The notes below the pieces were generated by a model. That model saw nothing but the letters and a program-made list of their open reading frames with translations, was not told the DNA's origin and did not search any database. 64,000 nt of DNA. It comes from Aotearoamyces nothofagi. Taxonomy: Eukaryota > Ascomycota > Leotiomycetes > Leotiales > Tympanidaceae. The position numbers and the translations under genes are program-made. The DNA is taken from NCBI GenBank assembly GCA_015345905.1, contig JADDTR010000024.1:62001-126000 (forward strand), in the 5' to 3' direction. Below, one piece after another: positions 5,761-34,426 of the stretch (position 1 is the first letter of the stretch; the number at the start of each line of letters is the position of its first letter).

Positions 5761-6639
5761 TACATATAATACAACGCTACGAGCCTCGTAGAGGTATTGG
5801 ATATTGGGTGACTTGATACGCATACTGTACTAGAAGCTCCCTAATCTGATCAGAACATCATATCTAAAACTCCGACGACGCGTCTCGAGCATCCGGTTCC
5901 GTCTAGTAATGTCGGCAGGACTATAAGCAGCTCAATTATCGTGGAAGAAGTAGACATAGAGCGTTCTTCACTATATCAGATTATAATCAAGACTTCGCTG
6001 AGCTGTCTGGATTTAATCCTCATACCGCGCCGATATGTAACGAGCCGGATTCTGAGGTTTGGTTCGAGCGGGGGAGTGTAGAGTTGCCTCAACCAGCAGA
6101 GCTTACTCATAGCTTAGAAGCCCTTAATCCCGGTTGATATTGTTGACAGAAGGACGCATCACTGGAGGTTAGCCCATCGTACCTCGACATCTGCACAGCC
6201 CAGTTGATACAGCCTCGCGGTCAGCCACCAAGGCGGATCGCAAAAGCGATGGAACACCTATCAAGCGGACCGAGAATACATTACAATTAGCACGTTGGTA
6301 AAATAACAACGAATTCATTGAAGAGGTAAAAAATTCGCATTCTAATAGATGTGCTTCTTCTCAATGGGCCTTGCACATATCAGAGATATTGGGAAGACGT
6401 CAAGGCTCCAGGCTACGATTTGAGAGGTATAAGTTCTTCTAGCCATCGTACGCGTGCCGACAATCCTGCAAACCGCAGAAAACATCAAGTATTCAGACAT
6501 TCGAGAACCCTGTTCGAGACAATGTCATTCGGGGAAAGGGGCGGTCGTTTACCAGTCGAGGGTTGGTTTTCCAAGCCTTGGCGTTATTCTGCAGCTGGGC
6601 GTTATTTTCCATTACCGTCTTTCTCGAGAGCCGGGTAAT
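5761..6639. other. Intergenic, no gene seen
   Basis: About 880 bases with stops in all frames and no protein resembling a known family. It starts in the 3' region of the RWD gene and grades into the simple-repeat belt that follows. I see no RNA gene. Confidence 0.45.
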
Positions 6640-9241
6640 GGACTCGCAGCGCGGCCTGGCGAGCAGGGAAGGAGAGGAAGGAGGAAGGAGGAAGGAGGAA
6701 GGAGGAAGGAGGAAGAAAAGATCCGACGAGGGTCGTAGTAGCAGTAGTAGTAGCAGCGCGCGCGGCAGTAGCACGTGCCGCGCCTCTCCTCGAGGCATCT
6801 CACTGTGGCAGTGCAGTCATCCCCCGCAGCCGCTCTCTTCTCGTCTGTTACTTCTCGCCGGCGTGAGCGCCCGCAATGGATCTTTCGATTCCTGGCTGGC
6901 TGGCTGGCAGGCAGCAGCGAGTCTAGTGACAATGAGTCACGTGACCAGAACTAGGCTGGATCTCGAGGGGGAGCAGGGCTGTGAGAATGTGCATCGCGAC
7001 TCGGGACCTGGATCCGGAGGGGCGGTGAAGGGAAGGGAAGAGAAGAGAAGAGAGGATGATGGTGCGATAAGAGGTGAGCAGGATCAGGGCAAGATGCAAT
7101 CAACGAAAGCCTCCTCTACTTCTACTCCTGCCAGCGCAGCGGTTAGGTGACAGGTCAGTCCGGCTGTTCACATTGAGCATCGCGATCTCTGCTCTTCCAC
7201 GTTGCCTTCTGGAGGTCGGGCTGGGTGGTTGGTTGGCTGCGGCGGCTTGAGGCGGGTCGGGGATGGGGGAGCGTCGAAACCGGACAGGATGTTGTACAAC
7301 AGGGGGGGGAGAGGAAAGGGAGATGCGCGATGAGGTCGTGGAGGTGCAGGGTGGGGCTGGGAGTGGCTGGGGCTGGAAAGGGGATCCTGGAGGTCAGGAG
7401 AGGGTTGTTTGTGTGGATGTGTGAAGCGGGTGGATATATAACTGTTCGCTATACCGCCGTGTCAGAGTGCACGACGTCACTCCCCTTGCAGACGGTCGGT
7501 CGGTGGGAGTAGGAGTAGGAGTGGAAGTGGAAGCACAACTGGAAGCACAACTGTATAGGATATAGTGATTCTCGTACAGTTTGCAGCTGCAGCATACCCT
7601 CTCTCTCTGCATCCATCCTGTCCTGTCCCTGGCAGAGTCGAGTCTATGCTGCTGTGCTGCTGTAGGAAACCAAATGTCAACAGCCGAAGCGCCAAGTCTG
7701 ACAGCGCGGCCAGAACAGACACAATGTCGTTGCGGCCTGGGCGCCAAGACACTTGGAAACAGCGGACAAGCTTCAGCGCCAGAGGGCCAAGAGGGCCAAG
7801 AGGGCCCAGCAGAAGCTTCAAGAGGCTTGATTGCACACGGCGGATGATGCTCTGCTACAGCACAGTACTATCTACTGCTCCCCTCCTCCAGCCGCAGCTT
7901 GGAAACGCGACCGGGTGGAGTGGAGTGGAGTAAAGTTAAGTGAAGTTGAAGCTATACAGCAGCAACAGAGATGTACAGCGACGCATGTTTTAAATTACAA
8001 GGGCGGGCGGTAGGTAGATGGGCGCAATCTCTCGCTGAGACATCGTGCCCAGCAGCCGGTAAATCATCACGGCGGCAGGCTGGCTGGCCGGCCGCGTCAG
8101 AGAGGGAGCCACTTTCACTTTGGGCACTGGAGATTGTACATGGAGGGTTGGACAGCGTGTACAGTACAGTGCAGTGCAGGGCAGTAGGGAGAGGGAGAGA
8201 GGGAGAGGGAGAGAGGGAGCAGCGACAGAAACAGGAACAGGACAGTGCCCGCAGTGACCTCAGCGGGTGGGTCGCAGGGTCTTTTATCGTGCAGACAAGT
8301 GGAGTGGCGCCGGGAGTGGCATTGGTGACATTAGTGGCATTAGGGGACATTAGTGGACATGAGTTAGTGGACAGTAGTGACATTACAGTCGTGGCTGTAG
8401 CGATGTAGCGGCTGTACAGTAGCGACTGTACAGTGGCTGTACTGTACGGTCTCTGTAGACGGCAGCAACATTAGTGACTGACTGCCCTGGACTGGCTCGC
8501 GGACGGCGACTGATTCCCCGCCGGGGCTGTGCAGGAGGCGCAGATGCCGCGTCTCGGGCTCTCTCTACAGCACAGTCCAGTCGGGCTCTAGGGCTCTTGG
8601 GCTCTTGGGCTCTAGGGCTGGCGGGTTCCAGGGTTCCAGGGGCTCAGCAGCTCAGCAGCTCTGCAGGCTTGCCGCTGCGCAGGTTTAGGGTGACTAGGGT
8701 ACGGTGTACGGACTTACAGTACAGTACCCTACGGCCGCTACCCTGTACTCCGCCTCTGAGCTGTCACTACCGCTGCCGCTGCCTCCCTCCTGTGCTTGTA
8801 CACGCCCCGCGACCGCCAGCAGTGCTTCGCCGTAGTATATACGGCACTGCAAGCGCCACAACAACTTCTTGTTTTCCCTCCCATTCACTCACCCAGCACC
8901 CACTGCCCTGCCCTGCCCTGCCCTGCCTGCAATCTCTTTCTTTCAGCTTCCTTTCTGACTCTACATCCCAAACAGAATACAGTACTTGCCATTGCATCGG
9001 CGCAGCCCGTGAATTGATCAGAGCCGCGAATTACGACAAAGAGCCTACAAGCCACAAGGCCTCATCTCGTCGCCTATCTGTCGACGTCAACCTCGCCTTC
9101 GTTCAGCCCCCAACTCACCTTTTCACCCATACGCCTGCAGCTGTTCCCGGTAATCAACACCCTCGCCATCGGTCGCATTGAGGCTGAAAGTGCTGCCTTG
9201 AGCCTGCCAGAGTCCGTGTTACATGAAGCGGAGGAAACGCA
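6640..9241. repeat. Belt of simple and short tandem repeats upstream of the Ca2+/H+ exchanger
   Basis: About 2.6 kb in which most of the sequence is short tandem or cryptic repeat: ggaagga units near 6672-6715, agtagc near 6735-6760, ggct near 6893-6910, gggaagagaa near 7028-7055, aggagt/ggaagt near 7507-7550, a nine-base agagggcca triplet near 7777-7806, ggagt near 7917-7930, gggaga near 8190-8220, degenerate ggacattagt near 8310-8390, gggctct near 8586-8625 and ccctg near 8905-8930. Open frames here (for example 8474-9181) are made of these repeats, have no family match and are probably not genes. The last few hundred bases are C/T-rich and should be the promoter and leader of the exchanger gene. 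Confidence 0.7.
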
Positions 9242-12626: not shown

Positions 12627-15404
12627 TGTCTTAAAATTATAGAAGTAATACTTTTAGACTATAAGCTAGAATACTACTATCAACTAAACTAGTAATCTCT
12701 TTTTAAGAGAGTAGAATAGTTCTTACTATCTAAGCAATTAAACAAGGCTGTAATTGAAGTATTTAGAATATAGCTAGTTTATATAATATAAATAGTAATC
12801 TAAGTATAAATTGTAACTTAAATACAATTGGTAAATATATTATAATTAGCAAATATAGTATAGTTAATAAACTAAATAGAAATAGTAAAGATATAGTACT
12901 TTTAGTAATTAGAATATTATCTATAAACTATAATACTATTAGAGACTACTATAGTAGAAATAGTAGTCTAAATATAGAAGACAGCTAGAGTAGAAATAAT
13001 AGTTTAAAAAAAGAAATAACTAAGAGAAGTAGAGATTTAAATCTAATAGATTATATCTACTAATTTGCAATTTAGTTAGTTCTATAGCAAGTTAGTCAAT
13101 TATTACTATATTTCAGATAATATAGCAATTAGCAAGTTATATAACTAGAATTAAATTAGACAATAGAAATAAAATAGCTACAAATTATAAAAAAAGCTAC
13201 AAGGTCTTCTAACTCTAGACTCAATAATAGACTCAATAATTGTAAGAGGGACGTGGTAAAAGAAGGCCCTGGTAGCGAAAATACAAGGCAATTACAAGGG
13301 GAAAAGTAGATAGAAAGGTGTAGCTTGGGAATAGTCTTGTTATAAAGCTAAAGAGCAAAGAGTAGCAGAGGTAAGTCTGCTATCTATAGTCCTAGAGACA
13401 TCTAGCTAGGCACTTTGTCTTTAGAAGCAAACTAGACAAACAACAAACAGCAAAGTGCAAACTATAAACAGAAGAGAAGCAAACAAGGCAAATATAGCAA
13501 ACAACAAACAGAGGACTCTTAGAGTCTTACTCTAGTTCCTATACTGTTCTGTAACAATAATAGACTTAGAGTCAACTTTAAAAGGCTTAATTTCTCTATA
13601 ACCTCTTTTCTATTCTACTCTTTATAGACTTACTACTATTTCTTAGCTCTAAGTTAGCTATATTATCTTTGATATTGTAATCTTAATAGCTTTACTATTA
13701 CAATTCTAAAGCAATTACTCTAGTATTAATATTAAACTAGAGATTACTAGATTAAACTCTAAAGCTTGATAAATTCTATTCAATTCTCTATATTTAGAAA
13801 GTAAAGTATAATTCCAACTGTTAATCTTAAATAATATAACAAACTAGCCAAGTAGATTCTTTTATAAGATAAAGTTTCTTATAAATCTTAAGATAGACAA
13901 TATCTCTAAGATTAAAGCTCTAGAGTTCTAGAGTTCTAGCTATTTGTAAAACAACTCTTCTATTATTTATAACAACTCTTAAGTCAATTTCTAATAGTAG
14001 AAAGTCTTTGTCTTTATTAGTTGACTAAATATTACTTTCAGTATTAGAATTGAGAGTAAAACTCTTATCAGTCTTATATATCTAATAAGGTTTTTATCTA
14101 AATCAAATCTTAAAAGAAATTTGTTTTAAAACTAATTCTCTAGATCTAGTAGTATTGATAACAATTGCTAGTTCTAGTAATAAATGAATCTAGTTAGAAT
14201 ATTGATATTCAGTTTAAGCAGCTATTAATCAACATTTGAATATATAATTAACAACTTCAACTGAGCCTTGAGTTTAAGGTTAATAAATATATCTATTAAT
14301 TATATAAATCTTTAGATAAATAGAATCTAAAAGTTCAAGTACTTTTCCTTTGAACTCTATACTATTATTATAATATCTAACTTCAATTAGTATTATTCTT
14401 TAAATAGAGACTATAGAATATAACTTATAGCTTTCTTAGATATCTATTTTAACCAAATCAGCTTTTTAATACTAATGATAATTCTTCTAAACTCTTGTTC
14501 TTAAGTATAAATAAAGCAATATAACAAGAGAAATAATCTTTGATCTATAGAATCTAATAGAAGTTTTTATCTCTCTTTATATAAAAATCTATAAGATCTA
14601 TATAGATTCTATCTAAGTATCTATTGCTAATAATTGGAATTAAAGTAGATAGTAGTTGATTTACAGCTTATAGCTGACAATATAAATACTTCTCAATAAT
14701 CTATTTAATATCTGCTTAAGAAATTCTATAGTATAATTCATGAATTCTTTTATAGGTCTTATTAATTCCTATAAAGATCAGTATAAATATAAGTATTTAA
14801 ATAGAAAGAAGAATATAAACTATAGTACTTTAAGCTTTAGTAGACTTTACAAATGATCTCAAATGCATTATAAGTATATATAGTATATCTTGTATTTAAG
14901 TAGAGCTCTAGTTCTAGACTTCTCAGCTTGTCTATAGACTTGGTTGTCTTGGAGTTCAAAATGGTACAAAGCTTGAGTTTTGAAGTTGGCATCTTTGGCT
15001 TTCTCTTTGTATAATATACTACAAGCTGGTAGGTTTCTATTATTTAGATGATATCTATAAGCTTTACACTTTCTTCTAGTTAGAATACCTCTATTGCTGC
15101 TTTGTTCAATATAGTCTATAAATCCTCTGGCTAAAGTAGAAGGCCAATATTTATATTCTTCATTATCAGGGATAGGTGATGATAGTATAAAGCGAGTACT
15201 ATATAGCGATGAAGATGATAAAGTGATATCTATAATTGTTAATACTTTAGAAGTTGATTTAGATCTGTAGAACACTTTATATATACTTTATATCTACTTT
15301 AAAAGATATCTAGCAAGCAGCAACTACTTTAAACTTACCTTATAAGATATTTTACAGAGACTTTATAGAGACTTTACAGAGGCTTTGTAGAAAAACTTAT
15401 AAAA
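12627..15404. mobile_element. AT-rich relic island, RIP-like, transposon fossil
   Basis: About 2.8 kb of very AT-rich DNA, full of TpA and with stops throughout, sharply bounded near 15405 by ordinary DNA. It encloses an LTR-like repeat at 13338-13556. This is what RIP-mutated transposons look like in Pezizomycotina. It is broken many times over, and no intact protein survives. Family is unassigned; an LTR retrotransposon origin is inferred from the enclosed terminal repeat only. The heavy decay suggests an old insertion, though RIP can act fast. Confidence 0.65.
13338..13556. mobile_element. LTR-like repeat, copy 1 (fossil)
   Basis: A 219-base unit beginning TGTTAT and ending GTAACA, clearly related along most of its length to 31353-31594. 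The TG...CA ends and the near-perfect short inverted termini are typical of long terminal repeats. No target-site duplication is visible, and both copies share the five bases agtct just before the start. This copy is more AT-rich than the other, consistent with more RIP. Orientation and superfamily are unknown. Confidence 0.65.
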
Positions 15405-16995
15405 AGTGCAGAGACCTAAGAAAACTTATATTTCTAAGTTTCATAACGTTGGAAATTGCCCAATTAGGCGAGTTACCCAGCAACACACCGGAATTGGTCA
15501 ACTCGCTGTGGAATTGACCAAATCGCAAATTGGCGGGTACAATCTATCAGATCCAACCTGCCTAGGTTGTTCGTTGGGGACAGAGTCGGCTAGCTGCTGC
15601 AGATAGACCCATCCTTTCATGATCCATCGCTGGCTGGCTCCTGTGACGCTATCCACAATCTGATCTGACATATACACTCCCAACACCACAGAGTCTAGCC
15701 ATCCCAGCCGTACATCCCGTCAGCGAGACGGGCGTTAGCAGATGTCCTACCCCGCCAGCTGCATCCCGCTGCCCGACGACTGCAGATTCAGCCATATCTC
15801 TCTCTCACGCGCTGCACTGGGCCTCTCTTGCAGTGGTGTTTGCGATACACCATGCCACGTCCAGATATCCTGGCGGCGAATACTCTTACCGGACAGACCT
15901 TGGCGAGAGATCTGTTAGTCGACTTGGGTCGAGGTTCGTCGTCGTCTGCGAGATGAGAGGACTGCTAGGCTTACACGGTCTGGTGTAGTCTGTTCGAGCG
16001 GCTTCGAAGACGATGCTGTAGATAGGGTAGGTCGGGCGTTTGGGTTACCTCTCCTCGTCGCGGATTATTGGAACAGCTACGTCTTCCTCTCCTTGTCTGA
16101 TCTTCGGCAACACTATCTTCAATCTACTATCCTACCGTCAGTCCAACTTATCACTACCCTTCCACCACCGTCCCCCGACCTCTATCTCTAATCTACCAAC
16201 CACCCTGCTCAGCCCTCCATCTCCACTTCACCACCAACCAGCTCTCCTCCTACCAAAGCGCATCCAACTCCCCCAACTCCTTCATCTCCTTCTTAGAGCA
16301 GCGCAGCTACAGAATACAGTATAAGATTTTGAGACAGCCAAATAGGCACATTGAGATTTCCAGAGTAAGTTCTGTACCTTTTGGTTGCGATTGATGTTTT
16401 GTCACTTTGCGTCGCCATCACATTTTGCTGAATCTTTGGAGTTCTGCTGCTGGTGAGCTTGCTGGGTTGGGGTCTTTGCTGTGGGAGCTTCGGTGCTGTT
16501 GTTTTGTTCGGCGTCACTTGACTCGGTGTCACTTGGTCTACCGTCACTTTGTTTTGCTCTACGTTCAATACCGTCATATATCTCGATGTTAAATCAAGCC
16601 CTGACATATGATTTATCATCATCTACGATTATGCTACCTTTCTATATGCCCCTACAAGACATCACCCTGGCTACCATCACTCTCTTTCTCTTCTATGTTT
16701 ATTATTGCTCTACAATCCTTAATTCTTTGAAGAAAGTGGCCTTAAAGATATAGAGATCATTTATATCATATATGACTTGTATATGTATTTGATACAAGAC
16801 TTGGTATTAAAACCCCTTCTATCTAACCCTATCACGATCATTATTATACTCATCACTAATTCTACTACCTTACAAATTATCTCTACTAACACATTAGACA
16901 TCGACTATCCAATATACCCTAAAAGCTATCGTTATTTACTGACAAAAGGATTGTGGCCAAGTCAATACCTTGAAATCAACACCCTTATCGTTATA
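15405..16995. other. Intergenic, promoter side of the SNF2 gene
   Basis: Composition returns to normal at about 15405. No conserved protein is visible. There is a pyrimidine-rich stretch from about 16110 to 16290 (ccaccaacc and ctcctcc runs), and an open frame on the minus strand (16293-16622) with repeated VTxxQVTP-like residues that I judge spurious. The frame of the SNF2 protein is open back to 16777, but the homology-like acidic N-terminus begins at 16996. Confidence 0.5.
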
Positions 16996-19900
16996 ATGTC
17001 CTCTTCGGCTGAAGTTCAAGAAGGATACGATGATTACGATTCATTAACTGGTGACCAAATTCCGTCTGAGCTATTGAGCGACGGTGAGCGAACTGCTCCT
17101 CGATCAGATTACTATATGAACCACGAAGAGGACTTCGATATCTACGGATTTCCTCGGGTATCTCAAGAAGACATTCCACTTCCTACCACCGAGTCTGATT
17201 CTGCAATGGAAGAGCCCGTACCAAGCAATGGTGGTCTGTTTGTATCTCCTGAACCAGAGGCTCAGGAGCACTTTGCCAGTCATAAAATAGCAGCGACGAT
17301 ATGTAAGCCAGCATCCCAGCGTTCCGATTCATCTACCAGCCGTCTCGACAACAACAGTCGTATTTTGGCAATTGATGACGATGCTTCTGATGACGATTTC
17401 TGCATGATTGAAGCGGCTCAGGCTACACCACAAGCACAAGAGAAATGGTCTCGAAACTCAAAAAGTATCTCTCAAGATCCAATCGTCATTTATGATGACG
17501 ATAAAGTTGAGATCAAAGAAGAGCCCTCGACAGATAATGAAAGGCCGAGTCCAGTTCCAAATGGAAATAGAATCCGGGCAGCTCAGCAGGCGCTGCTAAG
17601 GAACATGATCACTTCGAGATGCCAAACGGGAGCATCGTCAATATTTGGCCCTCAAACATTGCTTGGCAATGCCGAGAAGAGCAAGATTGGGGTCAAGACT
17701 GAGCCTAAGATTTTGGCTCATGGCATGTCATCAGTGAATGATGTGGCACACATGAATGAAAGGAAGGAGCTAGAGCAGCTGATGGCAATCAATCACTTGG
17801 AAGATCATAGTTGGATGCATGGAGTCGACGACCCTGATGAGATAGATGAACTCGAAAATCTCAAGACGCTAAAGCAATCTATTATTGCACGACAGAAGAG
17901 CAAAGGGCTGTCAGGTGGTGAAAATATTGAGCTTATCAGACTAAATGATCGGATAGGTACCATTAACAGACGAAAGGCTGCAGCAGATAGGATGAGCGGA
18001 GTCGACGAGGGACCATCTTCGTCATCTGTCGGCGAAGGCTCTGGGCGTATTACTAGTGTGGACAGTGATTCAGACGATGAAGATGATCCACGCCGTCGCA
18101 TGTATCAGGAAGAAGCTGATAAGACCCTCGCACAAGCTCTTCACGATGACATTATTCGACGAGATGAAGAGGCTGGCCGGAAGAGCAAGAAGCGACAGTC
18201 CACTACTGTAAAGACCAAAAAGCGGCGTAACAAGACAGCACGAGAAGTTGAAGATGCTCGTCGTGAGAAGGAGCGTGAGAAGGAGCGGAAAAAAAGAAAC
18301 CGGCCGGGAGCATCAAAGAAAGCCTCCAAAACGGTTCCAGTTCCAAAGAATGGCAAAGCCTCTAAAAAGGCACCAGCAGGTAAAAATGGCGGAAAGAATA
18401 AGAATGGTCATAAGCGTCATATGCTCAATAACGTGGGTGGAGGAGATGACCCGTTGCAAGAGATGCTAAATAGCTTGGTGAATGACGATATGATTACCAA
18501 TCGATTGGAGCAGGGTGAGTACGGCGAAGCACCTGAGATCCGCACGCGAAACAAGAAAACCCAGTTGGATGAGCTTATTGCCTCAGTTCCGAAGGATTAT
18601 AATACTCACAGGGCAAAGGTGGAGAGAACGGACCTGCATCGGGCTTCTAAAAGATTCGGCCATGGAAAGGTTTCAGGAAGGGACGGGATGTGGCTAATGA
18701 AGGGAATGAAATCTAGTCTTTACCACCACCAGTAAGTCTCGAAGCTCTCCCAGATGATTTTCTAACAAGCTTAGGCTACTCGCTGCTGATTGGATGGTTG
18801 GGCGTGAAATGTCCAGACGCCCACCTCGCGGAGGTCTACTCGCAGACGCTATGGGACTGGGGAAAACCCTTGAGATGCTCGCGACAATGGTTGGGAATCC
18901 CCCAGATGAGAAACATATCAAGAAAAAAGTCAAGTCGACACTGATTGTGGTACCGTCGAGCGTAGTCAAGCAGTGGATGGACGAGATCCGAACTCACGTC
19001 GACGAGAAGGTCTTCCCCCGAGTCATCCACTACAAAGCATCAAAGGAAATCCCCACACTTATGCTCCAGGATGCCGATATCGTGCTGACGAGTTATGCCG
19101 AGGTTCTCATGTCATACCCATATCCTGATAAAGATGAGATGAAGCAGGTAATCGCAACTGGTGGGATGGAAGCCTGGAACAAAAGGTGCAAAGACCTAAC
19201 TGGCAATCTGCATACCTTTGAATGGTATCGTGTAGTGCTGGATGAAGCGTAAGTTTTCTGATTCTTCATAAGATGTGTACTTACAGTACCTAGCCATGCT
19301 GTCAAGAACTACAAGGCCAGGACGTCCGTTGCCTGCCTGAATCTCACTGCCAAGTATCGCTGGGCGCTTTCCGGTACTCCGATCCAGAATCAGCTCGACG
19401 AGCTCTACCCATACTTTCGATTTCTCCGTGCGGAGTGGACTAGCACTTTTGAAGATTTCCGGAAGCATTTCTGCGATCCTGACGCCCACGATGCTTCTGC
19501 TAGAGTGGCAGTTGTTCTTAGCATTGTGATGCTGTAAGTGAATCATGAAGCTATCAGACCGTGTACTGATCTTCACAGGCGTCGTACAATGAAGGATAAG
19601 ATACTCGGCCGTCCAATTGTAAAATTACCTAAGATCCACCCGTCGACGCAGTTTATCTCTTTCTCTAGAGAAGAGCGTGTAATCTACCGCCTGCTCGAGG
19701 GCAGATTCCGAGAACTCATGAACATCCACTTCAGACAAGGCACAGCTCAGAAGAACTACGGCTGTTTCATGGTCCAACTTCTCCGGTACGTTAATAGTCC
19801 CAGATGATTTTCGTCAGTAACTAACGACATGTAGACTAAGACAATGTACTGCTCATCCTTTTCTCCTAGAGCAAGTCTTCAGAGAGGTATTCACATTAGA

Positions 19901-21526
19901 AGATATTCGTGGCCTCCAAAGGGAGCTCCAGAAGTATCGTAGGAACACGACGCCTATTTACGAACAGATCTCTCAGTGGCTTCAAGCTACCGAAGCAGAC
20001 AAAGAAGCTGCGAGAGAGCGAGGCGAAGCTACTCTAGAATATGGCGAAACCGTTCCGTTTGGACAGTCTGATTTCGGGAAGTACTTCAAGATGGACAAAT
20101 TCCTTGGAAACCTAGATTCGACTCAGATGCTGGAGCGAGTTGTGTGTCGTCTTTGCGGAGACGTTCCTCAGAATCCTCAGATTACAGACGTGAGCTTTCA
20201 ATTAAACGACCGGAGTTGTTTACTGACGAAAGAAATCTAGTGCCAGCATATCTTCTGCTCGGAATGTCTCAGGAACTATATTCATCGTCAAGCTGCACAG
20301 AGCGAAGGTTCAGACGTAAGTTCTGTTTCTTGCTTCCTGGTCCAGCCAAACCTTCTCTGACTTGGAAATAGTATACCGAATGTCCAGCTTGCAAGAAAGT
20401 CTTTGCCCAAGCAAATCCTTAGTGAGTTCTAGATATCCAACGCCACTCCAGTAGACTGATGTCCAACAGCAAGGATCTTACCCTGATCGATGACGATAGC
20501 AGCGCCTCAGAGGAGCCCGGATCTCAACGCTCGGCGGGCGGTTCTCGCTCGAGGACGAAGTCCAAGGACAGTTTCTATAATGGTCCACGGATCCGCGGAT
20601 CTACCTGGCTCTCTATGTGTCTCCGAGATAAAGTTCCTCTGCTCCCAAGCGCTAAGATGATTGCCTTGAAAGCCCAAATCCTCAAATGGATCGACGAGGC
20701 TCCAGATGACAAAATCTTGAGTATATCCTCCCCCAACTGCATCTTTCAACCAACGAACAGAGCTAATATCATGTCGATAGTATTCACACAATTCCGCATG
20801 GTGGCCAAGATCATTGGAATGATTGCAGAGCAGGAGAAATGGGGCGTCGTTTATTTCGTCGTAAGTGTCTCTATTCAATGTCGCTTTGTTGGTTGGGAAG
20901 GAGTCCTCGGTTATTGACGAGAGCTTCTCAGGGAGATATGAATGCGACTCAGCGACATACGGCTGTGAAAACGTTTCATGATAACAAGGAGGTCAAGATT
21001 ATGATCGCTGGGTTGAAATGTGGTGGTCAGGCGCTTAATCTGACTTGTGCAAACCGCTGTATTTCTGTAAGTTCTCCCTTTCTCCTTGTCCTTCTCTGTC
21101 TGGTCCAGGCTCAGCTACTCTCATTACTCTACTTTATATTTCTCGCTTTACTACTGTCCTCGCTATCTTCACTCTTCTTCTTGCTCCGGCTAACTCTAGC
21201 CCTCCTCTCAGATCGATCTTTGGTGGAATCACAGCGTCGAGCAGCAAGCGTTTGGTCGTATTTTCCGAATCGGACAGCTCAAAGAAACCCACGTCGTTCG
21301 GTTCGTCGTCAAGAACACCGTCGATGGCCGTCTGCTCGGCATGCAGGCCGACAAGGTCCGGACCATCGATGCAGCAATGCAGGATAGCGGAGATGCGATC
21401 ACTCCGCTGAGCATCAAGGACCTCGCGACTCTGTTCGGCCACCTCAAGGAAGATGATCAGGGCAACTTGACCGTCGAGGCTGACTACGATGATTCTGTAG
21501 AGGAGGTGGACGAGGCACAGGGGTAG
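16996..21526 (+). CDS. SNF2-family ATPase with RING finger (Rad5/Rad16/Uls1-like)
   Basis: Eleven exons: 16996-18731, 18775-19248, 19294-19533, 19579-19785, 19835-20189, 20241-20315, 20372-20421, 20470-20720, 20781-20860, 20932-21066 and 21212-21526; 1305 residues. A dsDNA-translocating ATPase of the RING-containing group, which acts in chromatin remodelling, repair or SUMO/ubiquitin control. Residues 1-570 are acidic and disordered with a Lys-rich basic block. Then SLYHHQLLAADW, Walker A ADAMGLGKTLE (about 600), DEAH (about 735, split by intron 2), LSGTPIQNQLDELYP, a RING (CRLC, CQHIFCSEC, CPAC, about 989-1036), and helicase C with IFTQF, GGQALNLTCANR and QQAFGRIFRIGQ. All motifs look intact. 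Exact orthology to Rad16 or Uls1 is not decided. Confidence 0.9.
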
Positions 21527-21625
21527 GAAAGGAGTAGAGCGGGAAAAGAGGTAGCGGCAAATATTTATAGAACTGCTTTATATTAGACAATGACGGCACA
21601 GATAATGCATTCCAAATTTCAGCAG

Positions 21626-22297
21626 AAAAAGCTTTCACCGTTTACTGATAAACGCTGTCGCTCAGTCCAAAGGCTGTCGTGCTAATCCCGGTCGCCAATA
21701 ATCGACGAGTGTTTTCCACCCGTCCGACTGAAAAAGTCGTCGCCAGTAAACGACGAGAGCTTTTCATTCATCAGCGCATATTCCGCATCCCCACGTCAAA
21801 AGCTGTCGCCGGTTATCGACAAGCATTCTCTCGCAGCCCGACTCAAGAAAGACGCCGTCAGTTATCGGCGACAGCTTCTCATTCAATTGATTGCAACGTG
21901 TGCTCGGCACGCCTATGCCAAAAGCTGTCGCCAGCAACTGACAAGCGTTTTATGACGACTCGGGCGGACCGACGCGACAAGACGGCGCCGGTGAACGACG
22001 AGAGGTATTGATTGAAGTCTGAAAATTTGCACAAGAAAAGCTCTTGTCGATTATCGACAGCTGCTTTGGAAGTAGCTGCCGTGATCTCAACGACGAGGCT
22101 GCCATCGGGCGCCGGCGAGGTTTCCAGACGATCCCGGTGGCCTGAGCCGGGAAGCCGTCTCCAGGTATCGGCGACGGCTGTTCTAGGAATGCAGACTGTT
22201 GTAGTAGAGGTGTCTCTCAGTTGCCGGCGGTAGGGCTGGCTTTTAGTTTGGCGCTCTTGTGCCAGCCACGCCTCGGCATTATCGACGAGGGATTCTC
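21626..22297. repeat. Degenerate array of about 13 hairpin-forming units
   Basis: The 865-base gap between the convergent SNF2 and ESF1 genes is mostly made of related units of about 33 bases spaced roughly 45-75 bases apart. The best unit (21798-21830) has the halves aaaagctgtcgccgg and ttatcgacaagcattctc. Others start near 21626, 21691, 21731, 21847, 21919, 21976, 22033, 22070, 22106, 22151, 22213 and 22270. Each has a left arm like GTCG/GCCG and a right arm like CGAC/CGGC around a short spacer. Arms often vary together: TCGTCG with CGACGA at 21736, GCCG with CGGC at 21854, GTCGAT with ATCGAC at 22045, AGCCGTC with GACGGCT at 22153. I know no named family. See findings. Confidence 0.75.
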
Positions 22298-22391
22298 GAG
22301 TGGCTTCAGCAGTTTATGGAACATGCGGTCATCAGCGATTAAGGGTCATGTGCTGATAGAATGATCATTCTTATTGCGTTAATAGGCGTAT

Positions 22392-24551
22392 CTACCTCTT
22401 GGCCTTCTTCTTTACACTTTCTACTAAGCTCGACAATTCCTGCTCCTGCGCAGCTTTCCTCCCAGATTTCTCCTTTCTTACGACCTCTCCGGCCTCTTCC
22501 TCTCCGTCATCCAGCTTCCGCTTCTTTCTTCCCTCCTCCAACAGTTTCTTCATCCCCTCAGTTCCGCGGAACCTCGGGTTGCTAGGATCAATGGCGAACT
22601 CGTGACTCTCGAATACAGCCTTGAATCGAGGATCTTCCACGTTCATCTCAAAGCTCTCCTGCATGCCACCTCGTTTACTCTCCTCGACTTCGCCCTTTGC
22701 AAGCTTCTTTGACCGTTGTCTCTTCTTCTTCGCCTTCTCGGCGCGCGCAATCTCGTTGATATCAAAGTGTTCCAGCTTCTCTTTTGGCGCATCGGTGCCA
22801 TCCACCATCAATAATTCCAGCTCCGCACGATTCGACGCTTTCTCTGCGGCTTCGGCGATTTTAGCTTCGCGACGCTTCAGGCGCGCCTCCTTGCGAAGCG
22901 ATTTAGAGGCTTTCTCTTTCACCGCTTCGTCATTCGCGAAGAACGGATCATCAAAGCCAAGGTCCTCGGCTGGTTGCTCTTCTTCTTTATCGTCCGCATC
23001 AGCAGCCTCAGGATCACGGCCTTCGCGGATAGCTCTGGCCTTTTCCTTACGGCGTGCTTTACGCTCCTTTTCTTTGCGGATATAGGCTTCGGCTGTAGTT
23101 TCGTCTTTGATCGGTTCGTTTTCAAACACACCGCCTTTAGCTTTGGAACTGAGTCCCGCCGAAAAGGTAATCTCCATATCGCCAACTGGGCCTGATTTGG
23201 TGGCTTTGGAAGACTTGGTCGGCGCGTCTGAAAGACCTAGCGCTGCACGCATCTTCTGCCGGGCGAGCTCTTTCTTTGTAAGTTTTGGTACGTCAGTTGC
23301 ATCGACTTCGGGGATATCTTCTTCTTCGTCTGAGGAGCTATCGCTGCCTAGGTATGCCTTGAGGTCATTTTCGCCGATTTCTGCACGACTACCGCTAAAT
23401 GCACGATTGATGACATCTCTGCGTGATGAGTCCTCAGCATCCCAAGTCAACTTGACCTTGGAATGTTGTAAAGCATCCGTGACAAACTCTGTAGGCCTAT
23501 ATCCTGATGGAACACTATCACACTCGTCTCTCGGCTTATCGTCAAATTCGACGTCGTCGGGAATGAATCGTAAATCAAAGAAGTTAGCTGATGTAAGGTA
23601 CTCTGTCCCATCCGTAGACTCGTAGATATGCCGTGCCGTCTCAATGTCCGAACAGACCATAACCGCATAGTAGTAACGTAATCGGTCGAGCTGATACTGT
23701 CTCAGTGCCCCACTATCAAACTCCTCTCCATTATCTGCTTTGAGGAGATCTTTCTTAATCTTCTCATCTGCACCCTCGTCATCTTCGCTATCGTCCTCCG
23801 AGTCTACTTCTGGATCTTCATCATCTTCCTCTGTTTGTCCTTGTCTACCAAAAATCTCTCTAGGTGGACCTTCCATCTCTTCTCTCTCCATACGCTCTCG
23901 TCCATATTCACTCTTGAATACCGAGAGCTTTTCGATCTTACCGCCTGCCTTCACGAAGCTTGAAAACACTGCCATGAGATCCACAGCTCTGATATTGTCC
24001 CAATCCAGATTCACAATGGCTATCCGATTGGATACTTCTCCCATAGGTACTTCGCTGGACTCAGCTTGTAGATCTGGGAATGCACCAACCTCTTCGACTT
24101 CGGCTTTGCCATCTTCCTCTTCTTCTTCTTCATCAGAATCATCTTCGCTGGAAGAAAACCCGCCACCTCTTGCAGGATCATAAGAAGCTTCGGCTCTCTT
24201 CAATTCCTTCGCTACAACTTCATCATCCTCCACTTCCACATCCGCCTTTTCATCGTCGCCTGTATCCTCATCCTCAGATTCATCCGGTTGGTATAATCGC
24301 TGAAGTGCTTCTTTCTTTGCATTGCTATTAAGTTTCCGTCCATATCGGTCAACTTTAGCAGTGTCTGCAAAGTCATCGTCTTTTAGCATGCGAGAGAACC
24401 TTTTGTCGACCTTCGTGCGCGCGTACTTTTTGGATGGTAGTCGAAAGCGTGGATCGGTGCTAAATGAGGCAAAACGTGGGTCTGTAATCGTTTCTTGAGC
24501 GGCGACTGCAGCTGAAGCTGCAGCGCCTTTAGGGGTCTTTTGTTTCGCCAT
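22392..24551 (-). CDS. ESF1: Pre-rRNA processing protein Esf1
   Basis: A single-exon protein of 719 residues. Esf1 is a nucleolar factor needed for 18S rRNA maturation within the small-subunit processome. The N-terminus has the family's DPRF repeats (ITDPRFASFSTDPRFRLP), then KVDKRFSRMLKDDDF and VDRYGRKLN. An RRM-like region starts at IAIVNLDWDNIRAVDLMAVFSS near residue 178 with long acidic inserts. The C-terminal NUC153 motif is EDPRFKAVFESHEFAIDPS, followed by NPRF and a Lys-rich nuclear/nucleolar tail. Length agrees with fungal Esf1 (about 630-750). It is divergent from IML1 with 309 bases between the start codons, and convergent with the SNF2 gene across the hairpin array. Confidence 0.95.
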   Translation of the reverse strand: MAKQKTPKGAAASAAVAAQETITDPRFASFSTDPRFRLPSKKYARTKVDKRFSRMLKDDDFADTAKVDRYGRKLNSNAKKEALQRLYQPDESEDEDTGDDEKADVEVEDDEVVAKELKRAEASYDPARGGGFSSSEDDSDEEEEEEDGKAEVEEVGAFPDLQAESSEVPMGEVSNRIAIVNLDWDNIRAVDLMAVFSSFVKAGGKIEKLSVFKSEYGRERMEREEMEGPPREIFGRQGQTEEDDEDPEVDSEDDSEDDEGADEKIKKDLLKADNGEEFDSGALRQYQLDRLRYYYAVMVCSDIETARHIYESTDGTEYLTSANFFDLRFIPDDVEFDDKPRDECDSVPSGYRPTEFVTDALQHSKVKLTWDAEDSSRRDVINRAFSGSRAEIGENDLKAYLGSDSSSDEEEDIPEVDATDVPKLTKKELARQKMRAALGLSDAPTKSSKATKSGPVGDMEITFSAGLSSKAKGGVFENEPIKDETTAEAYIRKEKERKARRKEKARAIREGRDPEAADADDKEEEQPAEDLGFDDPFFANDEAVKEKASKSLRKEARLKRREAKIAEAAEKASNRAELELLMVDGTDAPKEKLEHFDINEIARAEKAKKKRQRSKKLAKGEVEESKRGGMQESFEMNVEDPRFKAVFESHEFAIDPSNPRFRGTEGMKKLLEEGRKKRKLDDGEEEAGEVVRKEKSGRKAAQEQELSSLVESVKKKAKR

Positions 24552-24860: not shown

Positions 24861-27800
24861 ATGCCTATGAGTGCTCAGGCTACTCCACGTCGTGGAGGTA
24901 CTGTGCGTCCGGCGCAGCCTAGAAGGCCTAGCACAGTCAATATCGATCCTAACCAGGGTCTTTCCAATGGCGACACTCGAACCCCAACGTCAATTCCTAG
25001 CATTACAGGGCCAAAGGGTCATATTGCACTACGATGTGTTATATGGGTCCATGATGATCACTTCTCAAAGGATGAGGCCATCTTCAATCTCTCGCTGTTG
25101 CCGCCGTACTGCGTAAAGCCGGGACAATTGATGTCTATCGTGCCATTGAAGTCAGAATCGGCTGGCCGAGGTCATCATGGGAGGAGCCCACAACCCAAGC
25201 GTGGTACAGAAGGTCTCTCGGTATCGAGAGAGTTAAATGCTAGTAATACAGACCTAAGATCCTTAGAAGATTTAGGAACAAACGACCACGACGGTGTGGC
25301 TCTAGAACAGCAATACTTGTTTGCTGTTAAAGATATGAGCAAGGAGATGAGGGCGAAAAGTCCAAACTTAGAGATATCAGTTGCCAAACATATTGCAGAC
25401 GTATTCGGATTCAAGCATCGGTCTAATGTTATAGTAACTACAGTATGTTTTCACCCACTTTATGGCAACAAGTTTAACCGTTATTTAGATTTCGGCCGAA
25501 GCAACTACGGCGTCGCATGTCGAAATGTCATTCAAGGATCAATTTCTGTCACGTGCGGATATGTGGCGACTTACTCTGTCAGAACTTAGCAATAAGACCG
25601 TCCACAAAGGCCAGAAGATCGTATTTATGGGGACCATCAAAGCGCAGATTACGAGAGTTTATATAGCCGGCAAAAAAGTGCAGTCTGCATTCTTCTCAAC
25701 GAGCACTAAGCCGGTTTTTCGGAGTGAATCAGCTCGCTATGTTCTATTTATTCAAATGTCTAGAGAGATGTGGGATTTCGATTCTGAAGGCTCTGGAGAG
25801 ATAATGTTTACCAAGGTTGTTAACGGCTTTCTTCCAGCATTGTTCAAAAGATGGATAGCTCTAAAAGCCCGACATTTAGTTAGCATTGTTCTGTTCACTC
25901 GAGTGGAATATGATTCTGGCCTAACCACCCAGATGAACACGGACCGCGAGAGTACCTACTACACTGGCATCCAGGGTGGAGCCTCAAGAAAGCCATATAA
26001 GGATTTCTACAGGGTGGTAGTAAGTGAAATGTCTAGTGGGGAGTGGACCGGAATTTTATATCAACTCAAGCGGGAATTTCGCTTTTTCCGACGCGATATT
26101 ACCATGCACCGCCTCGATACAATGGTGGAGATGCCTAGTCCTGTTACTGCTGAGCAAGGAATGGGAACCGTTCCTGGTACACGGATAGAAGCTGAGCCAA
26201 CGTTCGCCATACATGGGAATGTTCTAGAGGCCATAAATCTCGCTTCAGCTCAATTTGCTTCAGATTATATTGACCGCGACCTTGTGCGGACCGGCATATC
26301 TATCGTCGTGATATCTCCAGGACCGGGTTTATTCGAAGTTGACTACCATACTCTAAAGATCACTACTGAAGCTCTAGTTGGAAGTGGTATAGCTATCGAT
26401 ATCGTTTGTTTACCCAAGATACCTTTGCATTCCGTCCCCCTCTTTCGATATCGAAATCCGCAATATATTGCATATCATGACAGCCTTAGGGTGAAAGCAA
26501 ATGGAAGTGAAAGCAGCACCCCAAGACAGGGTGGTGCTGTTTTTGGCAGCTTCTCGACGCTACACGAGTCTATATCTCCTTCCAAGGGTGCTAGTCACGA
26601 ACTCAGCCACCGATCGGGCTTACTGACCCCAGGAAGTTCCCTTGAGGAGTGGAGTTATGCGATACCTCATTGGGCGGATGTTTCGTTCTGGACAGGCGCT
26701 TCGCAAGACACTCTCTCGCGACCCGGTGCAATTGTTCAAGGTAGCCAGACACGGCGTGGGATTATAAAGGAGCCCACTACCTTTGCTATCAGATGTAAGA
26801 TGTATGAGGTAGAGATGCTAGGAAATGTAGAAAATGCTGAGATAATTGTTGCGCCACTACCGGATTATTTGACGCGTTCACCAGCGGCACTGGCATCAGA
26901 AGTTCCTTCGGAGGGCCTTACCTTTCAGAAGGAACTTAAGCGGCACGCGGGCCTTTCCGAAACCGTGGCTGGGCCTACCAGGCCAGTTATTGATAAAAGG
27001 TCAAGCAAAGAGGAAAGAGAGTTCTTCGATGCTCTGGACGCATTTGATGAAAAGGCAGCAATCATATTAAAACCTCTCCAGACCAGCCAGTCCAGAAACG
27101 AGTTGAGAAACAGGCATAAACTTCCAATCGAACATACTACCAAGAAGATCCTTGCTGAGGACTCAAAGGTTTTTGGGACATCATTCAGAGAAGGAAAGGA
27201 TGCACCGAAAGCTTTAAGCCTTGTTGGAGCAGCGCTCGAGGCGAGGAAGAAGTACGAGCCACATGGCATCGAGCACATAACACCGCTCGCTCGGAAGAGT
27301 AGTATCAGTAGTACCATCTCAAAATCATCAACATTATTATCACCAAGACCACCAAAGGCGCTCCGTCAGATAAGCCTCGGTAATCGAGGATTTGGCGTTG
27401 CAGCACCCAAAGCAGCCATTGCTGAACTCCAGACAGAGAATGCAAATGCAGCAAAACTGTCAAACCTTACTCCACAAGGGAGCGGCCAGCCCAGCAGCTC
27501 TAGCGCCATGGCTAGCCATTTATTTGCATCTCCTCGACTTGATAAGACTAGTGAGAGGCCTAGTTCATCAGGTGGAAGTCTTCGTTCCACTAAAGATATA
27601 CCTCGTGTGATTGAAGAGCCCATCGGCGATGATATTGATAAAGGACCGTCGAGCCGTCCCATCGCTATTAAAACAGCAATACCAGCAACGGAATCAAGCT
27701 CTCAAACCAAAGCTAGATCAATTCTAGGCTCACTTTATGAGGGGGTTAATCTGAACGGTGATTCAGATGACCTACCAGTTATGCAGAAGCTCAAGTCTAG

Positions 27801-30594
27801 CGATAATGTAAGAGCATCAAACTCAAAGCTTTTGGCCGGCGCGGTCCCCGAAGTGACCACTCTTTCTCCGACGACTGCTCTTTCCCCCTGGCTCAATGTT
27901 CTAAACCCGTCAAATCCAAAAATTGAAAATGATATCGCCAGCCAATATAAGCGCTGGCAGCATGTATTTCCTCGTCCAGTAAACACAAAGGCCATGAAGT
28001 GGAAATCTCTTTGTTCACCTGCATCTGTTCCACTCACTACTGAATATTTTCCAACCAAACATCAATTGGATACGGAATATCAGCAGATGCCATATAACAT
28101 CTCTCAAAACGTTGAAGATGAACTTAACGAAGAAATCAAGACTAGGGAGGAGTTTCTTAGAGAGCTTATTAGCTCACGCCTCTCCCAAAGTTTTCAAATT
28201 GTTGTGGGACCCGCAGTGGCAGAAGCTTTTGGCCAAAAGTCACTAAAGATAGCAAACGCCTTTGATCCCTATCACATCGCAGAGGATGGATCAAGTGTGT
28301 TCATGTCGATGGGTAACATCATACACCAGCTCTCTTGTGTAAATGGAACTGAAGTAGAGGTCAACATGTTTGTAAGGAAGTCTGCAGCATCTGCTGATAA
28401 CGAGAAGCATGATCCATCTCTAGGCTATAACCCTGCTGTTTGCACCACTCTCGAAAAGACCTATAGGTCTCGAGAGATAGTTCTAAACAAGACCCCAGAG
28501 GAGTATAACTGGAACTACGTGGATTCCTTTATTTCCGGTCATGATGTCGAGATGTCGGAAACTCTTCGTTATTGGCGTGCACGTTTCGTCCTTATACCAG
28601 TTGACCCACCGTCATTTAGCAATCAACGAAAAGGCGAAGATACGCCAGAGGAGACTCGGTTGGAAGGTATCAGGATTCTTACCCAACTATGGCAGCGGAA
28701 TCGATATATTCCGCCATCTGAACGTGGATTTCAAAATCTCTCGTTGCGCAAGAGGAAAGATCATAACCCTCTAGATGTTGTCTACCAGACACAGGATCCC
28801 TCGGTTGTCGTTAATGCGGAATTAGAGACCCTTAGTTTAGTCGAAACAGGAGAGGCTCAAATCAGACGCGGCCAACTTCTATCTGAAGGTGAACGTTTCC
28901 GGAAATCACCTTTAAATATTACGGCTCTTGCAGAAGCAATTCAAGCACCGGTGGAGAAAGGTGGCGTTAGAATGCAGAATAGAAGGTGGCATTTCATACT
29001 CCACTACAACTGTTTCATTGGTTCTGATATGACTACCTGGCTTTTTGAGAACTTTGAGGATGTCGAGTCTCGCGAAGAGGCAGTCGAGCTCGGCAATTTG
29101 CTAATGGCCAAAGACGAGGAAAGAAAGACAAAAGAGAAGGAGGAAGTCAAAGACAAAGAAAAGGACAAGGATACTGGGATATTTGTTCATGTTGAGAAAC
29201 GTCATCCTTTCCGGGACGGTCAATATTTTTACCAACTTGTTGGGGACTATGCAAAGCCACGTCCCGAGACGCGAAGTGGATGGCCATTTGGGACTCGTCG
29301 TCGAGACGCCTCTATACCGTCAACTCCAATGTCTGAAACTGCCATCAAGGACTCTCCAAAGCCTGAAAGGGCTAGATCCAGCTCTAACAATGATGAAAAG
29401 CCAAGCGACTCTGGAAATGCTACTCCGACCACCACTTCTTCTAGGAAGCCAAAGGTTTGGCTTAGCAAAGTCATGAAATATGACGTTGATCCTCGAAAAC
29501 GATCATACCGTTCAGAACGCATTAACCTACATTATGATAGACTTCATAATCCGGATAACTGCTACCATATCCGGTTAGATTGGATGAATGTCACACCGAA
29601 GTTGATTGAGGATGCGATTCAATCCTGGGCGTCTACTTCAGAAAAATACGGCTTGAAGCTTGTAGAAGTTCCAATCGGTGAAGCATGCGCAATTACAGAT
29701 GTTCATCCATTCAGAACTCCTTATCTGGTAAAACTCGCTGTTTCTCCACCTAGAAAACAGCCACCTGTATATTTGGACGCGACATCTCTAGTTCCACAAC
29801 CCTCAAATAATAAGCATTACTACCAAAAGGCCATCCTTAAGAAATACGACTTTGTCTTGGACGTCGAAGCTGCTCATAATTTCCCAGCAAATGTGGACGT
29901 GACTTATTCTTGGGGTCGCCCAGACTATAGATATACACAATATATCCACAAGTCTGGTATTGGCCTTGCGCAAATCACTGATGATGGCGACTTCTTGCTT
30001 CTTGCTAATAAACTCTACAACAACCGTTCTATCGCATCCAGAGACCAAGAACGATTTGTCAAACCGGACCATCTTGATCGTAGCGTTCGTATGTCTTCCG
30101 CTCCTAATTATGGCTCCGGACAGTCACAAACCCCAATCTCCTCACCAATGCTACGTGCCAATCTTACTTCCCCACATTTGCGTGCAGTCTCCACCTCTGC
30201 ATCGTCAGACGTCCTCGGCCCGTCAAGCGCGTTTTTCCCTTGGAACAGAAAGCCCATGTTGACTCCCGACAAACTCAAAGATGAGCTCGACTCCTTCTGC
30301 CACAGTGCCTCAGCCCTCCAGAACTTTTACCAAGAAGTTCTGGAAAAGGCCATGCCACCAAATGTCACGCCTCCTACATTTCAACGAGCAACGCATAGAG
30401 AAAGCTTCTTAGATACAAATATTCCAACACTTGGGTTAGGACCGGGAATATTGAGTAGAGAGGGTAGTCCAAGTCCGATGAGGTTGGTGGGAATGGTACC
30501 ACCTATTAGGAAGCAGAGTCATCATCAAAGTGATGCAGGGAATAGTACTGGCAGTGCACAAGATAGCCCAAGAGGTAGTATGTTGAGCGAATAA
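24861..30594 (+). CDS. IML1: SEACIT/GATOR1 subunit Iml1 (DEPDC5 homologue)
   Basis: Two exons (24861-25442, 25489-30594), 1895 residues. Iml1 is the GTPase-activating subunit of the vacuolar SEACIT (GATOR1) complex that restrains TORC1 and promotes autophagy when nitrogen is low. The splice (actaca/gtatgt to ttatttag/attt) joins VIVTT to a short bridge ending ASHVEMSFKDQ, the expected family sequence. Next come DMWRLTLSELSNKTV, VQSAFFSTSTKPVFRSESAR and YVLFIQMSREMWDFD. A long disordered Ser/Pro part spans about 700-950. The DEP domain is near 1350-1440 (RWHFILHYNCFIGSDMTTWL), and the C-terminal domain near 1550-1720 (HIRLDWMNVTPKLIEDAIQ). The tail is Ser/Pro-rich. Length is normal for filamentous fungi. 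Confidence 0.95.
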
Positions 30595-31340: not shown

Positions 31341-31352
31341 ACAGTCTAGTCT

Positions 31353-31594
31353 TGTCATAAAGCTAAAGAGCGAAGAGTAGCGAAGGTAAGCCTGCTATCT
31401 ATAGTCTTAGAGACGTCTAGCTAGGCGCTTTGTTATAGTGAAACAAACAAGCTAAACAACAAACACCTAAAGTGCAAACTATAAACAGAAGGTAAGCAAA
31501 TAGCAAACAGGTACTACAAATGCCTACTACAAGTGGAGACAGTAAATAGAGAACTCTCAGAGTCTCGCTCCAGTTCCTATACTGTCCTATAACA
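31353..31594. mobile_element. LTR-like repeat, copy 2 (fossil, probably solo)
   Basis: A 242-base unit starting TGTCAT and ending ATAACA, related to 13338-13556 in the same orientation. The first 90 bases and the last 50 are most alike; the middle differs by short insertions. It is less AT-rich than copy 1. No flanking duplication and no partner repeat were found in the window, so it looks like a solo or truncated LTR. Superfamily unassigned. The AT-rich DNA after it may be a relic of the same element. Confidence 0.65.
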
Positions 31595-32552
31595 GTTGTA
31601 AATTTTACCTGGTTGGCAATCTGCATTAGAATTGACAGCTGATATTATATAGTTATAGAAACCAAAAGTATTATTAATTTCCTTAGAGGGTTTATAGTTG
31701 TAGTATCTACTATTTGATTTGAATTTATGAAAATTTAGCTGGAGCTGAATACTCTAAGAGAAAATAGAGAGATAACTTTGTTCAACAAGGGAGCAAATAG
31801 TCGATAGATAATTCAGTCGAAGAGTATTATAGTGAAACTTCTTAGCCTCAATTTTTTGATATTTTTTATTACTGGATCTGTTACTAACAATTCTAAGAAG
31901 GCTCCTCTAGCTATTATTTGGCATTTGATATAATAGATTAAGATAAAACTCAGTGATCTAGATATCTATATTACAATTAGTTGAAGCTGTCTATTCAGAT
32001 ATAGACTTGATCTTATAAAATCTTTTTTTCTAGTCTGTCTTTGTTTCTTTATTGAACTTTAAAAAAGCCAGTATCTACAATAATAATAATGATGATAAAG
32101 GATGAAATAGAATGATAAATGATTTGATTCAATTATAAAAGTCGAATTATAATCAAATCATCTTTCTTTTAGACAAACTAGTTATCTAAAATCGAGATGT
32201 TTTAAATTTACTACTATAAATAATCAAATTTTTGTTAAGTTCTTGATTTTTTTAAGTATCCTGTATATAAATTAAATTATTTTTCGAGCATCCTCTAGTA
32301 TAGGTAAACACTAGGAACATAACTGGAGCTTAGAAGATCTTGCCAGTTGTTGTCATTGGCGAGATATACAGTACGACCATTTATTCTTTTGCTCCTCTGA
32401 GCAAGATAGCTGAGCTAAATACACGCCCGGAGTGCCAATACGACAACACTATAAATAGCCGGCGACCGACCCCGATTTTTCGAACTCCAACTGGAACGAC
32501 GACATCGTCGCCAGTACCATCCCATCTACACCAGCTGAGACCCTATATCAGC
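31595..32552. other. AT-rich intergenic DNA, RIP-like relic, then F-box promoter
   Basis: From 31600 to about 32300 the DNA is AT-rich and stop-dense, resembling the island at 12.6-15.4 kb, and is probably decayed mobile DNA. From about 32330 normal composition returns, and the last 220 bases should be the promoter and leader of the F-box gene. Confidence 0.5.
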
Positions 32553-33978: not shown

Positions 33979-34426
33979 CTAATCAAGTGACGAAAGCGTT
34001 GGTTTAAGAACAGCTATAAACAAGATACAGATGTCGGTCATTGACGTACACCTCTTTTCTTTATTTCGGCATTTGATTTACGGCTAGACATTATAATAAA
34101 ACACTTCGTCGAGATACGATGTTTCTAATCCATTGTCGGCTTGTTAGATGCTTTACAGACTTCGGTGGGGATAGAGATTAGATATCATATAGAAGGTTTT
34201 GAAGACATTTTTACTTGAACAAATTGAGCAATGCAATAATGTAGCGAGCGACCTGTATCTCTATTGCCGAAACAACCTTCCAACGCCGTCATTTCGCCAA
34301 ATATGTGAATATCCCATTCTTCACCGATCCCCACGAAGTATCTCCATATCCTTTCTATTTTCCCTATATCCTCTCCCTAGCTCCCTAGCTCCCCATCTTC
34401 CCAACTCCCAATCATCCCACAGTTCT
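33979..34426. other. Intergenic between convergent F-box and microprotein genes
   Basis: About 450 bases with no supported gene. It includes a C/T-rich stretch near 34340-34440 that runs up to the last exon of the microprotein gene. Confidence 0.45.

Follow-up and report, generated by a model that had tools for sequence, protein, structure and literature searches.

An array of short imperfect palindromes lies between two convergent genes in a 64 kb stretch of DNA (the window, i.e., the whole stretch analysed), and in several of its units the arms depart from the consensus while still pairing. The question raised by the locus is whether this pairing is maintained, as in a structured RNA, or was inherited from a palindromic ancestor and is being lost. 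We favour, with a probability of about 0.6, the view that the array is a minisatellite of the fungal nucleus, a tandem repeat both old and decayed, derived from a ~115 bp segment with two palindromes that was duplicated head to tail. Judged by its genes, the window is fungal nuclear DNA, and all statements on the palindrome family rest on these 64 kb. The genes that situate the array are as follows:

16996 to 21526, forward strand: gene interrupted by several short introns, with an SNF2-related domain; its end is 100 bases short of the array
22392 to 24551, reverse strand: ESF1 gene, converging on the array (Pfam RRM_ESF1, 2.3e-52, and NUC153)
24861 to 30594: IML1 domains, following ESF1, one of them a fungal N-terminal model
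41053 to 47076: CAD-type pyrimidine gene

Both flanking genes had been named correctly in the preliminary description, with ESF1 recognised by Pfam, which also detected the SNF2-related domain (2e-25 and 2e-15) in two of five stretches of exon sequence. The SNF2-domain gene likely starts at ATG 16996 and stops at 21524-21526, and its frame is still open upstream of this ATG, with a further ATG at 16783. From stop to stop, the gap between this gene and ESF1 measures 865 bases, most of which is filled by the array. AT-rich stretches on both sides of the array could, as read from the sequence, serve poly(A) formation, and the array may therefore lie outside both the SNF2 and ESF1 mRNAs. A tRNA gene search at the bacterial-code setting returned none in the window. 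The ESF1 protein gave 590 and 563 pattern matches in prokaryote and virus contig collections, with no relatives among them, which says little given the collections; its RRM part, compared with the first of these collections, gave 93 stretches with no relatives and no syntenic locus, which again says little. The core pattern of the array had no matches in viral contigs.

The array and its first unit were delimited as follows:

21624 to 22184, no strand assigned: array of nine clear imperfect palindromes of ~33-36 bp (U1-U8 and U10)
21627 to 21658, forward strand: unit U1, preceding the first full higher-order copy and having the lowest leave-one-out score of the nine

The units were first found as nine ungapped 24-base matches and extended to cores of ~33-36 bases. 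They start at 21627, 21684, 21732, 21798, 21847, 21920, 21977, 22036, and 22150, with successive spacings of 57, 48, 66, 49, 73, 57, 59, and 114 bases, and their majority consensus, including an intron copy described below, is AAAAGCnGTCGCCGGTTATCGACGAGnGCTTTT. The units differ much from one another (mean column identity 66%), with leave-one-out scores ranging from 12.3 bits (U1) to 28.6 bits (U4), and between 0 and 6 of the 126,458 position and strand combinations outside the array matched the left-out unit. The regions of U9, U11, and U12 reached only 6.6, 3.3, and 7.7 bits (chance expectation per region 0.03, 0.09, and 0.02) and are at most faint, representing three positions too decayed to call. 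The array of about 13 units noted earlier is thus real, with nine clear units; the count of 13 is too high, up to three more being doubtful. A coding repeat was ruled out given that some of the spacings cannot be divided by three. The symmetric centre of the palindrome is not sharply defined, and we also discarded the idea that each A-spacer-B block forms a single inverted-repeat element, as inverted halves were significant in only part of the ten blocks tested (U4-U5, U5-U6, U3-U4, U7-U8, and U1-U3; weak in U2-U3; not significant in U6-U7, U8-U9, U10-U11, and U1-U2).

Autocorrelation of positions 21601-22320 peaks at lags of 115, 114, and 122, and the duplicated unit is a ~115 bp segment with two palindromic cores, not a single hairpin. 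Among the four readings offered in the preliminary description, it is the old minisatellite with a palindromic unit that gains support, with a unit of ~115 bp instead of ~58 bp. The higher-order copies are:

21684 to 21797, forward strand: copy H1, comprising U2 and U3 with spacers
21798 to 21919, forward strand: copy H2, comprising U4 and U5
21920 to 22035, forward strand: copy H3, comprising U6 and U7
22036 to 22378, forward strand: segments H4-H6, keeping the ~115 bp phase and far more decayed, with H6 doubtful

Spacer homology was assessed by comparing global alignment scores with those of 300 shuffles of the spacer letters only. H1 and H2 align full-length with a score of 103 (78.8 ± 6.5 when shuffled), which none of the 300 shuffles reached, and the scores of H1/H3 (81) and H2/H3 (76) were reached by five and four shuffles, respectively. 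The spacers of H1-H3 are homologous in phase, part of the signal being located right beside the cores in the alignments. Among the 21 pairs of the seven segments H0-H6, H2/H6 (1/300) and H5/H6 (3/300) also stand out, while no spacer homology was found for H1/H4 (232/300), H3/H4 (152/300), or H0, which holds U1, against H1, H2, and H3 (147, 147, and 250 of 300). Head-to-tail copies in one phase, spacers included, are accordingly seen in H1-H3 and only partly in H4-H6, where the H1-H3 profile recognises mostly core fragments. Tandem Repeats Finder reported no row over the array, as the copies fall below the similarity usually needed.

One observation counts against neutral tandem decay, namely that the cores (21.25 versus 10.92 when shuffled, 0/300) are clearly better conserved than the ten spacers pooled (10.24 versus 9.96, 62/300). 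The pooled comparison is null because it mixes two kinds of spacer, and the proposal that the spacers are unrelated and the cores hence selected was dropped once the comparison had been made with the spacers in their 115 bp phase. The units themselves fall into two alternating classes, {U1, U4, U6, U8} and {U3, U5, U7, U10}, as defined by core pair 10/27 and by pairwise scores; the alternation runs from U3 to U8, and U2 belongs to neither class by core pair 10/27.

These classes bear directly on whether the arms change together. All four arm pairs singled out earlier (near 21736, 21854, 22045, and 22153) are present at those places, and the claim built on them, that pairing is kept amid divergence, is not supported. 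When every left arm was combined with the right arms of all other units, own arms had mean energies of -7.9, -8.6, and -10.2 kcal/mol in three settings, compared with -8.6, -9.7, and -11.5 kcal/mol for permuted arms, and 74%, 88%, and 91% of permutations equalled or surpassed the pairing of own arms (77% in a fourth setting with the intron copy added). There is thus no detectable coupling of the arms, own arms being no better than swapped ones in all four settings. In a five-pair core, 40 of 45 cells are paired versus 36.7 under block permutation (P = 0.006), or 37 versus 29.6 when only Watson-Crick pairs are counted (P = 0.002). The main source of this covariation is a single pair, T-A in U1, U4, U6, and U8 and C-G in U3, U5, U7, and U10, and since alternating classes are what duplication of a two-core unit is expected to give, one old difference may be counted repeatedly. 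Consistent with this, the covariation is lost when permutation is confined to within classes with U2 fixed (P 0.19-0.33; 0.25 for cells paired and 0.19 for Watson-Crick pairs), although four units per class give little power. The covariation in the core can therefore be explained by shared descent of the two unit classes, a form of phylogenetic covariation of which a published report warns (PMC11234323).

Other measures of the core are more favourable to pairing. Both sides have changed in four of six core pairs, the named register beats all six slid versions on both cells paired and covariation score, and, of five covariation measures set against a simple shuffle, three were reached in 0/500, a fourth in 11/500, and the fifth in 340/500. 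Weak selection on unit structure is possible, given that the within-class tests on four units are weak; nine units give little power, and among them we found no covariation beyond descent.

The expectation that paired stems would outnumber those of shuffled sequence was borne out for short arms and failed for longer ones. Perfect stems (loops 3-16) in 21626-22297 with arms of at least 5 number 20 versus 10.6 in dinucleotide shuffles (reached by 5/200), and those with arms of at least 6 number 7 versus 2.5 (10/200), while there is no excess for arms of at least 7 (1 versus 0.7; 94/200) or at least 8 (0 versus 0.2; 200/200). The fold of 21600-22320 has z-scores of -5.4 and -4.9 on the two strands, with 0/20 shuffles as good on each. 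At the level of single units, folding is mildly better than in shuffles (mean z -1.07 on the forward strand and -1.67 on the reverse). Forward-strand hairpins stand out in U3, U5, U8, and U10 (1-8 of 200 shuffles as stable) and less so in U4 (16), and those of U1, U2, U6, and U7 are no better than shuffles (80-191 of 200); on the reverse strand, U3, U4, U5, U8, and U10 lie at 0-12 of 200 and the remaining units at 30-97.

Profiles built from the nine units find three further loci outside the array, single palindromes of which the preliminary description made no mention:

20893 to 20931, scoring on both strands: copy in the SNF2-domain gene, within its 71-base intron 20861-20931
58508 to 58546, scoring on both strands: copy between two reverse-strand genes, 36 kb from the array
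16918 to 16956, scoring on both strands: copy preceding the likely SNF2-domain start (ATG 16996) by 40-78 bases

The near-palindromic nature of the site accounts for the scores on both strands. Removal of intron 20861-20931 leaves the frame open, and the copy at 20893, as read from the sequence, covers the likely branch-point region and the acceptor, i.e., the 3′ part of the intron. The copy at 58508 lies ~150 bases past the stop of an ammonium transporter gene (58700-58702) and, ~280 bases further on, an Npa1/NopRA1-type gene likely starts (58225). For the copy at 16918-16956, which is borderline in the covariance models, a coding position is possible given the open frame with its ATG at 16783.

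Four profile widths were tried (24, 30, 32, and 36 columns). With 36 columns, the three loci score 22.5 (20893), 19.8 (58508), and 18.8 (16918), the next locus reaching 12.6. In 1000 free column permutations, their P values were 0.001, 0.010, and 0.018, with 0/1000 permutations giving three positions at 16 or more, and 1000 pair-keeping permutations gave 0.001, 0.009, and 0.015. The best locus with 30 and 32 columns had P values of 0.0025 and 0/400, and the best outside match (20.3) exceeded the maximum of 18.2 in 60 dinucleotide shuffles. Covariance models, in which the tool's E-values are rough, returned E-values of 0.002, 0.0035, and 0.039 with a stem (R1) and 0.0021, 0.11, and 0.07 without one (R2). 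Support is weaker with 24 columns (P 0.0175 and 0.04), and other widths raise lower-scoring loci at 55132 (15.8), 60655 (15.2), and 32332 (14.9), the first of which is coding DNA within the ORF of the Npa1/NopRA1-type gene. Copies beyond chance are thus present at three loci in the 64 kb window. The H1-H3 profile matches these loci around one core only (positions 52-97, 52-84, and 60-82 of 114; E 0.0023, 5.1, and 7.2), so that it is the palindrome that is dispersed and not the tandem unit, which suggests a small dispersed palindromic repeat family that was tandemised locally.

Two weaker resemblances were also noted. One is a palindrome relative at 34018-34058 (10.6 bits at 34027, reverse strand, 32-column model), shortly past the stop of an ORF ending at 33978, and the other is a weak reverse-strand match at 19806-19837 in an intron of the SNF2-domain gene (11.8 bits; E 1.3 in the model without a stem), which a branch-point-like motif may explain.

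Three other explanations were weighed against a decayed tandem repeat. The palindrome could be an ultra-short element, dispersed and possibly mobile, with the array formed by a cluster of its insertions, a reading we consider unlikely even though it accommodates the three outside copies, with their both-strand scores beyond the permutation and shuffle controls. Independent insertions would not give the common 115 bp phase and homologous spacers of H1-H3, seven of the spacings (without the 114) are spread more evenly than insertion at random predicts, if marginally (P 0.052), and, of the three single copies, two are located within or next to the gene adjoining the array. The drop in support with 24 columns, the E-values of two copies without a stem, and the lower-scoring loci at other widths, at least one of them coding, also weigh against it. 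Less probable again is that the cores are putative sites for a DNA-binding protein (the palindrome being a dimer site), with the array kept between convergent genes for, e.g., transcription termination or replication-fork arrest. The location of the array, the single sites in an intron and in gene flanks, and the conservation of the cores over the pooled spacers all agree with such sites; however, core conservation partly reflects the pooling, given that the H1-H3 spacers are homologous in phase, and the units differ much (mean column identity 66%).

The least probable explanation, and in our view a very improbable one, is a structured RNA with selected hairpins, either in the 3′ UTR of the SNF2-domain or ESF1 mRNA or as a non-coding RNA. 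The z-scores of about -5 for the whole region, the 40 of 45 paired core cells, and the four of six pairs changed on both sides speak for it, but folding on both strands is what inverted or palindromic repeats give anyway. The arm swaps reveal no coupling, the covariation is gone within unit classes, four of nine units have no forward-strand hairpin better than shuffles, and none of the 4227 Rfam families compared with the window matches at the gathering score.

A decayed tandem repeat, by comparison, needs no function to account for the observations, and the array would be old and without retained function. A short palindromic repeat may first have been present near the SNF2 gene, and one or two copies of the dispersed family probably gave rise to the array after the 3′ end of this gene. 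Two palindrome copies with their flanks would have been duplicated in tandem, by slippage or unequal crossing-over aided by the palindromes, and then decayed, leaving three copies that align full-length and about three that are presumably older or faster-decayed. Palindromes provoke slippage and breaks, and this tendency could account for the duplications as well as for the uneven lengths of the spacers. The pairing within units would be inherited from the palindromic ancestor and in the course of being lost, not maintained.

Degenerate minisatellites are tandem repeats with units of tens to more than 100 bp, and the array resembles them in its head-to-tail copies, common phase, and decay of some copies; it differs in that its unit is built of two near-palindromes, with related single palindromes outside. 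Among the palindromic elements of fungal mitochondria are double-hairpin elements. Mitochondrial palindromes, as described in PMC7218506, are likewise short and in noncoding DNA, whereas the array is nuclear, beside ESF1, SNF2, and CAD-type genes, and its unit lacks the (A)n/(T)n form. In Volvox carteri, short palindromic repeats (average ~50 nt) are reported from intergenic and intronic organelle and nuclear DNA, with many nuclear copies degenerate and an organelle origin suggested by the authors (PMC2670323). The intergenic and intronic setting is shared with the fungal locus; the tandem array is found in the fungus, while an organelle source is suggested for the Volvox nuclear copies (PMC2670323). 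Introner-like elements of fungi are described as whole, near-identical introns (PMC4457414, PMC8469720), and one of our palindrome copies does fill the 3′ part of a short intron, but within the window the similarity is mainly limited to the palindrome (the intron match spans only positions 52-97 of 114 of the H1-H3 profile), and no donor is seen at the array units. In the titles and abstract openings of the matches listed in our literature search, neither this array nor such a family in the fungal nucleus is described.

Other repeats in the window include two diverged AT-rich copies ~18 kb apart, at 13332-13567 and 31347-31605, with 91% identity over 87 nt and 78% over 67 nt. The AT-rich tracts holding them have TpA/ApT ratios of 1.35 and 1.19, compared with 0.63 in the array's neighbouring genes, and in this resemble transposon remnants mutated by RIP. 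RIP mutation of the array was considered and rejected, as its ratio of 0.67 is like that of the neighbouring genes and unlike that of the AT-rich tracts; its second RIP index (1.04) lies between those of the genes (1.28) and the tracts (0.81 and 0.92). Tandem Repeats Finder also reported 14-16 bp tandem units at 8384-8457 containing the palindrome CTGTACAG. The 7-mer GAGGAAG is repeated six times without mismatch at 6674-6715, inside a mechanically listed ORF (6563-7150); its period is not a multiple of three.

Taken as a decayed minisatellite, the array is nothing unusual and offers a clean example of how shared descent of repeat copies can mimic RNA covariation. It is conceivable, though we hold it rather doubtful, that the single copies mark a genome-wide family of ~36 bp near-palindromic nuclear elements in introns and gene flanks, which can enter introns as the branch-point and acceptor region and, where convergent genes meet, multiply in place into tandem arrays; they would be the nuclear equivalent of the hairpin elements of organelles. 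The comparable elements described in PMC2670323 and PMC7218506 are organellar or of suggested organellar origin. If true, such a family would mean that ultra-short palindromic elements are spreading in a fungal nucleus, introns included.
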